A stretch of DNA of 37,726 bases, taken from Patescibacteria group bacterium (GTDB lineage Bacteria > Patescibacteriota > Patescibacteriia > UBA10025 > JAHIVO01). Position numbers and translations under genes: made by a program. Shown in pieces: positions 34,805-37,496 of the stretch (position 1 is the first letter of the stretch; the number at the start of each line of letters is the position of its first letter). Under the pieces are notes generated by a model, which saw only the letters and a program-made list of their open reading frames with translations, was not told where the DNA came from and made no database searches. Where the stretch lies: positions 1-37,726 of the forward strand of contig JAHIVO010000036.1 in the NCBI GenBank assembly GCA_018816445.1. The letters run 5' to 3'.

Positions 34805-36523
34805 TTATTTTTTATCCTCAATTTCTTTTAGGACTTGTTTGATAAAAGATACTTGAGTCATTTTTTTAATATCTTTTTGTCCGCGCAGACGAATATTCAG
34901 TGATTTGCTTTTCATTTCTTTATCGCCAATAACCAGCATATAAGGAATTTTTTGTTTTTCTGCCAGGCGGATTTTATATCCCACTGTGTCATTGGCATCA
35001 TCAAGTTCAGAACGTATGCCCTCGTTCAAAAATTGCTGATGCAATTTTTTAGCATAGGTTACATGTGCCTTACCAACTGTCATTATTTTGACCTGAGTAG
35101 GGGACAACCAGACAGGAAAACTACCGGCATAGTGCTCAATTAGAATACCCATAAATCTTTCAAACGATCCAAAGACAGCACGATGAATAATCACCGGCGT
35201 TTGTTTGCTGCCGTGCTGGTCAGTGTATGATAGTTCAAACCTTTCAGGTATCTGAAAGTCCAATTGGATGGTAGCTAATTGCCAGGCTCGTGATAGGCTA
35301 TCTTTGATAATAATATCAATTTTAGGGCCGTAAAAAGCTCCATCACCTTCGTTTACCTTATAGGAGATTTTATTTTTTGTTAAAGCCTGGGCCAAGGCTT
35401 TTTCAGCATAGTCCCATTTTTTAATTTCTCCTATGTATTTTTTTGGCCGGGTGGACAGAGCAAAGCTAGGCTGGAAATTAAAAATCTTATAAAAAGGCTT
35501 AATTAGTTTAATGACGCCAGTAATTTCCTGTTCTATCTGGTCTGGCCGGCAGTAAATATGAGCGTCATCCATGGTTATCTGGCGTACGCGAAATAATCCG
35601 CCCAAGGCGCCGCTTAATTCGTTACGGTGTAAACGACCAATTTCAGATAAACGCAGAGGCAGATCTTTGTAACTTCTTAATTTGGAGGAGTAGATATAAG
35701 TTGAACCCGGACAGTTCATCGGTTTTAAGGCGTATTCCTGATCATCAACTTTCAGCCGAAATATGTCTTCTGCATAGTGCTGCCAGTGGCCTGATTTTTC
35801 CCACAGAGTTTTTTTATTAAGAATGGGAGTTGAAGTTTCTAAATACTCATTTTGATCGTGAATTTTCCGCCAGTATTTTTCAAGCTCTTTGATTATAATC
35901 ATGCCTTTAGGCAGCCAAAACGGTGCACCAGGCGCTACCTCATGAAAAGCGAAAAGTTCCAGCTCCTTGCCCAGTTTACGATGATCGCGCTTTTTTAATT
36001 CTTCCTGGAGTTTGAGGTAGTCATCTAATTCCTTCTTTGTATTAAAAGCAACGCCGTAGATTCTTTGGAGCATGGTGTTTTTTTCGTCGCCTCGCCAATA
36101 AGCGCCCGCAGTTTTGGTTAGTTTAAAAGCATCAGCTGGAATTTCTTTGGTAGTGGCCACATGAGGACCTGAGCATAAGTCAATAAATTTCCCTGACTGA
36201 AAGTAGGTGATTGGTGCTTTTTCTTTTTTCAGCTCCTGAATTAATTCCAGTTTATATGGATCTTTTTTAGAAAAAGCAATAGCTTCAGAATAATCCTTTT
36301 CGTTTTTTTTAAAAGCGATATTCTGGCTAGCCAGTTTTTTCATGCGTTTTTCAATCCTCGGCAGATCCTGTGGAGTAAAGGGACGTGGTAAGTCAAAATC
36401 ATAGTAAAATCCATTAGCAATCACCGGGCCAATGGCTAGCTTGGCATCAGGGAATAATTGCAGCACTGCCGAGGCCATGAGGTGTGAGAGTGAGTGGCGG
36501 ATTTTGTGAAGTTGTTTGTCCAT
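34805..36523 (-). CDS. thrS: Threonine--tRNA ligase lacking the TGS domain
   Basis: A 572-residue class II ThrRS. The first domain present is the editing domain (about 1-185) with HSLSHLMASAVLQLF (HxxxH) and FIDLCSGPHV. The catalytic core (about 200-460) has GAPFWLPKGMIIIKELEKYW (motif 1), LPLRLSEIGRLHRNELSGAL (motif 2), ALKPMNCPGS with the zinc-binding Cys, and VIIHRAVFGSFERFMGILIE (motif 3). The anticodon-binding domain (about 470-572) closes it. The N-terminal TGS domain of the 640-residue standard form is absent, as in other CPR. A T-box leader lies upstream, with one gene between. Convergent gene on the other strand. Confidence 0.96.
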   Translation of the reverse strand: MDKQLHKIRHSLSHLMASAVLQLFPDAKLAIGPVIANGFYYDFDLPRPFTPQDLPRIEKRMKKLASQNIAFKKNEKDYSEAIAFSKKDPYKLELIQELKKEKAPITYFQSGKFIDLCSGPHVATTKEIPADAFKLTKTAGAYWRGDEKNTMLQRIYGVAFNTKKELDDYLKLQEELKKRDHRKLGKELELFAFHEVAPGAPFWLPKGMIIIKELEKYWRKIHDQNEYLETSTPILNKKTLWEKSGHWQHYAEDIFRLKVDDQEYALKPMNCPGSTYIYSSKLRSYKDLPLRLSEIGRLHRNELSGALGGLFRVRQITMDDAHIYCRPDQIEQEITGVIKLIKPFYKIFNFQPSFALSTRPKKYIGEIKKWDYAEKALAQALTKNKISYKVNEGDGAFYGPKIDIIIKDSLSRAWQLATIQLDFQIPERFELSYTDQHGSKQTPVIIHRAVFGSFERFMGILIEHYAGSFPVWLSPTQVKIMTVGKAHVTYAKKLHQQFLNEGIRSELDDANDTVGYKIRLAEKQKIPYMLVIGDKEMKSKSLNIRLRGQKDIKKMTQVSFIKQVLKEIEDKK

Positions 36524-36638: not shown

Positions 36639-36953
36639 TTATAAATTCATTGGACCTACACCTGTTTGTTTATCGTGCTGTTGTGTTTTACCGGCATTAA
36701 GTAGCATTTGATACCAATTGATTTCCCGCATTTTTTCTACGTCTTCATAAAAAGTAATTTGATTTTGGCTATTAAAGAAAAAGACCTTCTTGGGCTTTCC
36801 TTCTTCATTAAATCTTACTTCTCTTTTAAAATGTTCATGAGTTTTAGGATGTTCTACCATGGTAATTTCTGGTTCGGGAGCTTCTTTACCATTCTCTTGT
36901 TCAGAAGCAGGAATTGTACTTTGTTCGGATGGTGTGTATATTTCTCGGGCCAT
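36639..36953 (-). CDS. Hypothetical acidic protein between T-box leader and thrS
   Basis: A 104-residue soluble protein that I do not recognise. Residues 1-40 are acidic, Pro/Glu-rich and probably disordered (MAREIYTPSEQSTIPASEQE). The core (about 40-92) looks folded: HEHFKREVRFNEEGKPKKVF, FFNSQNQITFYEDVEKMREI and NWYQMLLNAG. The end is polar (GKTQQHDKQTG). No Shine-Dalgarno is visible. It is the first gene behind the T-box terminator (about 70 bases) and 115 bases before thrS; no separate thrS promoter is evident, so the two may share threonine control. A shadow frame on the other strand is not convincing. Confidence 0.7.
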   Translation of the reverse strand: MAREIYTPSEQSTIPASEQENGKEAPEPEITMVEHPKTHEHFKREVRFNEEGKPKKVFFFNSQNQITFYEDVEKMREINWYQMLLNAGKTQQHDKQTGVGPMNL

Positions 36954-37022: not shown

Positions 37023-37205
37023 TCTAAATAAAATAAATCCCGAAAAGTAATGATATTCGGGACCCCGAAGGGCGGTTCCACCCTTATTGTCTCCCTGCGG
37101 GAGACCTCTTTAATATTGAGTTGGCCTTTGATTTAGTCCCATAAAACGGGATAGTTCTTGTTAGCTAAGGCGTTTGGTATTCGCCCCAATCATCAATAGG
37201 CAGTT
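37023..37205 (-). promoter_or_regulatory. T-box riboswitch-type leader, probably threonine specific
   Basis: On the minus strand, in transcribed order: a short Stem I (about 37194-37160) whose terminal loop AATACCAAA holds ACC, a threonine codon, followed by a purine; hairpin TCCC/GGGA; a CTC/GAG hairpin; Stem III GTCTCCC/GGGAGAC (37106-37090); the T-box core GGGTGGAACCGC (37083-37072); then terminator TCCCGAA/TTCGGGA (37062-37038) with a T-rich tail to 37026. The T-box TGGA would pair with a tRNA ending UCCA. The antiterminator can pair GGG of the T-box region with TCCC that also begins the terminator. This is a transcriptional design. Stem I is far shorter than the classical one, with the specifier in the terminal loop as in ultrashort Stem I T-boxes. 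Confidence 0.83.
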
Positions 37206-37208
37206 TTT

Positions 37209-37237
37209 AGCATACTCTTTAGTATAAAATATGTCAA
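37209..37237 (-). promoter_or_regulatory. Promoter of the T-box leader
   Basis: On the minus strand TTGACA (37237-37232), exactly 17 bases, TATGCT (37214-37209); transcription would start at about 37202-37205, just at the T-box leader. Confidence 0.8.
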
Positions 37238-37238
37238 T

Positions 37239-37265
37239 AAAAAAGAGCTCTCCTGATGGAGAGCC
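37239..37265 (-). terminator. Terminator of the small zinc-ribbon gene
   Basis: GCTCTCC and GGAGAGC (37247-37253, 37258-37264) form a perfect stem with a four-base loop. On the minus strand a TTTTTT run follows, just before the -35 of the T-box promoter. Confidence 0.88.
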
Positions 37266-37304
37266 CATAAGACTTTATAGGTGCAACATTCCATTGTCGT
37301 ATCC

Positions 37305-37496
37305 CTATAACTTATTGCCACAATCGCTGCAGAAAATATCTCCTCTTTTTTTGTCCTTAGAGTGGCATTTAGTGCAGTCTGCGCGTATACCAGCATTAGG
37401 ATTTAGCAGGAATCCGCATTTAGGGCAATGTTTTGTTACCGACCTGAAGTTTGATTTCCTTCCACATTTGTCGCATTGTTTGTTGTTGCCTTGCAA
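37305..37496 (-). CDS. Small double zinc-ribbon protein (TTG start)
   Basis: A 63-residue protein with four CxxC pairs: CDKC and CPKC (about residues 8-27), CTKC and CSDC (about 41-59), i.e. two treble/ribbon zinc sites: KQCDKCGRKSNFRSVTKHCP, then KCGFLLNP, and ADCTKCHSKDKKRGDIFCSD. Read from TTG at 37496 because GGGAGGG lies six bases before it. A second, basic frame (37524-37420, starting MKNTKREGKVARQ) overlaps it and also has GGAGG in front. Own promoter and terminator. Such small zinc ribbons often bind nucleic acid or protein; function unknown. Confidence 0.78.
   Translation of the reverse strand: MQGNNKQCDKCGRKSNFRSVTKHCPKCGFLLNPNAGIRADCTKCHSKDKKRGDIFCSDCGNKL

Follow-up and report, generated by a model that had tools for sequence, protein, structure and literature searches.

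A predicted compact threonine T-box ahead of thrS, with its specifier hairpin enclosed by an outer helix, in a Patescibacteria group genome and its relatives

The window analysed here, a stretch of 37,726 nt from a Patescibacteria group assembly of 1.34 Mb (92% complete), carries at its right end a minus-strand leader (37237-37026) that consists of a threonine T-box and a transcription terminator and heads a 104-aa open reading frame (ORF) and thrS. The T-box (37237-37055, minus strand) is the sole Rfam T-box match in the whole assembly. In the order of transcription, the unit comprises the following features, each given with the basis of its assignment.

37209..37237, minus strand: sigma-70-type promoter, TTGACA (37237-37232), 17 bp, TATGCT (37214-37209); sequence
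37192..37201, minus strand: 5' strand of the outer helix P1, GCC (37201-37199), then TTGAT (37196-37192); minimum free energy (MFE) fold of the leader, covariation of the homologous helix
37187..37191, minus strand: conserved junction strand GATTG; found in 34/38 leaders and 68/80 independent leaders
37168..37186, minus strand: P2 specifier hairpin, 6 bp, with the 7-nt loop ATACCAA, ACC at 37178-37176; covariation, independent leaders
37137..37167, minus strand: insert with a weak P3a (TAG/CTA, 3 bp, 37167-37152) and P3b (TCCCGTTTTATGGGA, 37151-37137); folding against shuffles
37133..37136, minus strand: conserved junction strand CTAA; CTAA in 29/38 leaders, CCAA in 4
37124..37132, minus strand: 3' strand of P1, ATCAA (37132-37128), A, GGC (37126-37124); covariation, MFE fold, flank-swap control
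37087..37110, minus strand: Stem III with a 5' purine run AAGAG and 3' AA; sequence, covariation
37059..37083, minus strand: antiterminator with A1 GGG/CCC, the bulge UGGAACC (37080-37074) and A2 GCCC/GGGU with a UUCG loop; RF00230 alignment
37026..37062, minus strand: intrinsic terminator with a T-rich tract; fold, terminator scans of relatives
36639..36953, minus strand: first ORF of the unit, 104 aa, orphan; homologue, Pfam and NCBIfam searches
34805..36523, minus strand: thrS, threonyl-tRNA synthetase, 572 aa; TIGR00418, 725 bits against a cut-off of 384

An earlier note, made from the sequence of this locus, had described a promoter, a stem-loop presenting ACC, a Stem III-like hairpin, the T-box core and a terminator, all of which were found at their minus-strand places. 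The Stem III helix reads GTCTCCC-GCA-GGGAGAC (37105-37089), the T-box core GGGTGGAACCGC occupies 37083-37072, and the base of A2 is the G-U wobble 37073/37062. The terminator hairpin, TCCCGAA(11 nt)TTCGGGA (37062-37038), is followed by TTTATTTTATTT, with the T tract at 37037-37026. Nucleotides 37062-37059 are common to the terminator and the 3' strand of the antiterminator, which makes the two folds mutually exclusive. When the window leader was folded without constraints, P1, P2, P3b, Stem III and the terminator all formed; P1 is interrupted by an A-A mismatch, and P3a, with 3 bp only, is absent from the MFE fold. The full-transcript MFE fold prefers the terminator, as expected, because no tRNA takes part in it. 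What the earlier note had overlooked is the outer helix P1 and, within it at 37167-37137, one or two further small hairpins. From the end of the -10 box to GATTG there are 17 nt, and the promoter adjoins P1, so that a longer Stem I could not be accommodated; the leader, about 190 nt in total, is without a long Stem I, an internal specifier loop and an IDTM. Just upstream of the T-box promoter, the window also holds a 63-aa zinc-ribbon-like ORF (37305-37496, minus strand), after which a terminator-like hairpin, GGCTCTCC...GGAGAGCTC TTTTTT (37240-37270), precedes the promoter. A manA-II match on the opposite strand was at chance level (E 2) and was discarded.

Running the Rfam T-box model, as had been proposed, gave an alignment of RF00230 to 37237-37055 (minus strand) over the full model with 29.2 bits and an E value of 2e-4, which places the leader in the same family. 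The score lies below the gathering score of 93 bits, a database threshold and not a biological feature, and the leader is therefore unlisted at the default cut-off. Three tRNA-Thr genes with the anticodons GGU, UGU and CGU were located in the window genome using Rfam and ARAGORN. All three have the discriminator U that the earlier note had expected from the UGGA of the T-box, and the GGU anticodon is complementary to the loop codon ACC. The leader thus shows the general hallmarks of T-boxes, namely a UGGN-ACC bulge in an antiterminator with an A2 G-U wobble, a cognate specifier, a discriminator match and mutually exclusive folds. Judged from these sequence features, it is very probably a T-box riboswitch that works by transcription attenuation and recognises tRNA-Thr(GGU) specifically. 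Were it a leader-peptide attenuator or some unrelated terminator, a terminator would likewise stand ahead of an aminoacyl-tRNA synthetase gene, but the T-box core, the discriminator match and the invariant ACC hairpin would be left unexplained; no Thr-rich ORF was seen in the leader by eye, and we regard this explanation as extremely improbable.

For comparison with the predicted T-box of the window, 40 thrS leaders with a T-box were fetched from the same class. They share a common order of elements, with the 5' strand of P1, GATTG, P2 with the 7-nt loop NNACCAA, an insert, CTAA, the 3' strand of P1, an A-rich spacer, Stem III, GGGTGGAACCGC and a terminator, and P2, P3a, P3b and CTAA often adjoin without a linker. 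In an alignment of 32 thrS leaders (A1; five leaders were left out), every one of the 16 tested pairs had changed on both sides (P1, 6/6 counted pairs; P2, 6/6; Stem III, 4/4), so that the possible objection of absent covariation, raised at the outset, fails. Paired cells amounted to 91% in A1 versus 58% after shuffling and no more than 50% after sliding. The insert folded better than its own shuffles in 32/32 leaders (mean z -2.4) and in 63% of the leaders, versus 7% after shuffling, it contained two hairpins, each with 4 bp or more; as this proportion is only 63%, a strict four-way junction is claimed neither for all leaders nor for the window. Terminators were present in 36/43 thrS leaders versus 9% of shuffled sequences; as this strict ungapped scan missed bulged terminators, the independent leaders described below were scanned by folding.

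A covariance model built from A1 (R1, 32 leaders) matched 195 of 381 genomes of the class at E<=0.001, and its 139 strongest matches were spread over 138 of these 381 genomes. Wherever the coordinates of thrS were known (77/77 R1 matches), the gene lay downstream on the same strand at a distance of 82-1464 nt, an association that is partly given by construction, since R1 was trained on thrS leaders and about 40% of its strong matches belonged to the training set. We therefore considered an independent set of 80 leaders outside R1 training, which were themselves recruited by R1; the model expects ACC and P1, though the scores come to about 45-96 bits and each of the two accounts for no more than a part of them. 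Within this set, thrS followed within 1.1 kb in 74/80 leaders, and UGGAACC was present in all 76 leaders in which a T-box motif was found. With the hairpin sought after GATTG and no codon required, ACC occupied the third to fifth positions of a 7-nt loop in 63/65 leaders, which bears out the constancy of the specifier before thrS on which the earlier note had made its reading depend. P1 paired over 5 bp or more in succession in 71% of the independent leaders versus 8% when 5' flanks were swapped between leaders. By these sequence comparisons, the architecture recurs in 135 or more further genomes of the class and is not due to chance; the assignment as a threonine T-box ahead of a hypothetical gene and thrS was thus confirmed by the RF00230 alignment, by covariation and by the thrS association in relatives.

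The same set of relatives bears on two other explanations. Long-Stem-I T-boxes occur in the same class, and the window leader might be one that was shortened by an assembly or annotation error; against this, the promoter adjoins P1 not only in the window but also in 26/36 thrS leaders (TTGAC, 15-19, TAnnnT just before P1, versus 0.7% in shuffles), and the short form was found independently in more than 130 genomes, leaving such an error barely conceivable. The second explanation is a translational T-box, in which a ribosome binding site is hidden or freed and the 3' hairpin acts as a sequestrator, as in the ileS leaders of Actinobacteria. It draws on the published record, in which T-boxes that combine an ultrashort Stem I with an apical-loop specifier are mostly translational (PMC7583486, PMC10482949), but in the window TTTATTTTATTT comes after the 3' hairpin, which is situated some 70 nt upstream of the ATG of the first ORF, and terminators with a dG of -10 or better were found in 61/76 independent leaders versus 2/76 shuffled ones. 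Translational control is accordingly very unlikely, and the leader is treated here as a transcriptional T-box.

Four T-box classes were distinguished in a 2023 paper, in which Class III is characterised by a short Stem I, a specifier loop of 5-6 nt and a required Stem II, and Classes III and IV mostly control translation (PMC10482949). In the T-box database TBDB, the class II model was applied to Actinobacteria and to truncated class I matches (PMC7778990). There is a close likeness to Class III (ileS of Nocardia farcinica and Mycobacterium; PMC10482949, PMC7583486), with which the thrS leaders share a very short Stem I without an elbow-binding IDTM, an apical-loop specifier and the same discriminator domain (Stem III and T-box bulge). 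The description of the element as an ultrashort, ileS-like Stem I stands as far as the short hairpin with a loop specifier and the combination with a terminator are concerned; the hairpin is, however, one arm of a multi-helix junction closed by P1, with further hairpins beside it. Its loop has 7 nt instead of 5-6 nt, although in some leaders the outermost T-A could pair and leave 5. The leaders also differ from Class III in ending in a terminator and not in a sequestrator, in preceding thrS and not ileS, and in belonging to the CPR and not to the Actinobacteria. The Stem II S-turn and the IIA/B pseudoknot of Class III were unrecognisable in the thrS leaders by a motif test, an F-box-like and an S-turn-like motif being found in just 3/32 leaders each. 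It is conceivable that the leaders belong to Class III, with Stem II and IIA/B diverged past recognition, rather than to a new arrangement: the short Stem I and the apical specifier agree with this, the inner hairpins could be a degenerate Stem II, and short aspS and valS T-boxes of the same CPR class have IIA/B-like and mostly S-turn-like motifs. We nevertheless consider such a divergence unlikely in view of the scarcity of both motifs, the position of the inner hairpins within P1 and not 3' of Stem I, the loop length, and an outer helix that encloses the whole unit with covariation.

With regard to the remaining classes, the terminator/antiterminator arrangement is shared with Class I (Bacillus tyrS and the thrS leaders of Firmicutes, the latter with the same target and UGGA), but the family lacks the long Stem I, the internal specifier loop and the IDTM. 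Class II (glyQS) is likewise without Stem II and has a terminator, but reads glycine and has a long Stem I, in contrast to the threonine codon ACC ahead of thrS. Class IV has an intermediate Stem I with the specifier in a side bulge, whereas the specifier of the window sits in a hairpin loop. On this sequence comparison, the family has the general features of T-boxes and appears to fit none of Classes I-IV. We favour, with moderate confidence, the view that it represents a fifth T-box class, largely confined to the CPR, in which a P1-closed cloverleaf-like junction presents a CUACCAA hairpin that would read the anticodon by loop-loop pairing, fast enough for transcriptional control, without Stem II and without a Stem I tip that binds the tRNA elbow.

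Other short T-boxes were seen in the same CPR class. Seven leaders ahead of aspS and one ahead of valS (near positions 1501-1722; gene names by eye) have a specifier loop of 5-8 nt and terminators, and carry IIA/B-like motifs and mostly S-turn-like ones as well; they are apparently Class III-like in shape and transcriptional. Most of the aspS leaders present AAC (Asn) and not GAC, which suggests a non-discriminating AspRS.

The earlier note had remarked that T-boxes are little described in the CPR. Our literature search found no paper joining T-boxes with CPR, Patescibacteria or Parcubacteria, an earlier mention in older key papers being possible and priority uncertain; in the genomes, however, they are common in the class of the window organism as judged by sequence matches, with an Rfam T-box match (E<=0.01) in 124/286 genomes (sizes in the class about 0.5-1.7 Mb), only 6 of these 124 exceeding the gathering score. 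Many of the matches sit just upstream of thrS. A Falkowbacteria record, within the Patescibacteria group according to NCBI, contains a leader of the same type, scoring 78 bits, and in a phylum-wide sample of 380 genomes three from other classes clearly carry it before thrS. Weaker phylum-wide R1 matches were other ultrashort T-boxes, some with apparent glycine codons, and the thrS T-boxes of Firmicutes scored at most 45 bits with R1, probably owing to the shared discriminator domain.

Several individual leaders are worth recording. Very short T-boxes lacking Stem II, with apparent Gly specifiers (GGC or GGA), UGGA and a kink-turn-like GATGA, were seen in other CPR classes and in two members of the class (L224-L230, near positions 1501-1620). 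In the leader of a Wolfebacteria thrS with an ultrashort Stem I (L061, 2208-2340), a kink-turn motif GATGA/GGAG closes directly beneath the ACC hairpin, and this leader may connect Class III with the junction type. Among named genomes, the nearest thrS (57% identity) lies on a 4.4-kb contig labelled Ignavibacteriae (JACQVI010000087.1), possibly a misbinned CPR contig. Six further T-boxes, several of them with a long Stem I, stand before apparent trp genes or argininosuccinate synthase in some members of this class of reduced genomes (genes by eye).

The hypothetical gene said to come first in the unit is indeed an orphan: the search for homologues of the 104-aa ORF in 56 related genomes returned no match except itself, nothing was above the Pfam cut-off and nothing was found in NCBIfam. 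An identity as Desulfoferrodox was rejected, as the match was weak and under the Pfam cut-off. By sequence, the ORF is peculiar to the window genome among the genomes searched, and as a putative gene it is a local instance of the genes found between T-box and thrS. In about one quarter of the checked genomes, thrS starts at least 570 nt past the T-box, which gives room for another gene. Intervening genes include those of a GNAT acetyltransferase (eight leaders), a D-aminoacyl-tRNA deacylase (two leaders), metK (one leader) and NUDIX or HAD proteins, two examples having been confirmed by family search and the rest named by eye. Neither thrC nor homoserine dehydrogenase had a match in the window genome, both being present in 14/14 control genomes, and threonine is therefore most likely imported. 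Patescibacteria have been described as missing amino-acid biosynthesis pathways (perspective article, PMC11665869), and the bacterium of the window is tiny and probably host-dependent.

Our comparison covers the anatomy, conservation and covariation of the leader, its tRNA match, its gene target and its exclusive folds; from the well-studied T-boxes we infer that it binds tRNA, senses charging and switches. RNA polymerase would start just before P1, and P1, P2 and one or two small hairpins would fold into a multi-helix junction that displays ACC in the 7-nt loop for pairing with the GGU anticodon of tRNA-Thr. The 3' UCCA of an uncharged tRNA would pair with UGGA in the T-box bulge, hold the antiterminator and prevent the terminator, so that the first ORF and thrS would be transcribed; with charged tRNA, the terminator would form and transcription would stop. 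With imported threonine, the output of ThrRS would then follow the threonine supply. A tRNA anticodon loop is laid out as two pyrimidines, the triplet and two purines. The P2 loop consensus CUACCAA, with the pattern Y-Y-ACC-A-A, shares this layout, which by analogy suggests a preorganised loop-loop interaction. The junction probably takes the place of the tRNA-elbow contact and the Stem II of the known classes in stabilising codon-anticodon pairing, and GAUUG/CUAA may possibly be a kink-turn junction (compare PMC4005666). Mimicry of tRNA by the whole cloverleaf was dismissed, as the helix lengths do not match those of tRNA.

Published accounts hold that transcriptional control by a T-box generally depends on a long Stem I gripping the tRNA elbow, and that short T-boxes require Stem II and are mostly translational. 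A large covarying family with neither feature, yet ending in terminators, would offer a test of the minimal RNA required for reading a tRNA in the seconds before the terminator. Standard Rfam annotation with its 93-bit cut-off misses nearly all of these T-boxes, and their small size makes them a candidate sensor for Patescibacteria genetics. For the organisms themselves, the family points to a likely amino-acid control by RNA in reduced CPR genomes.
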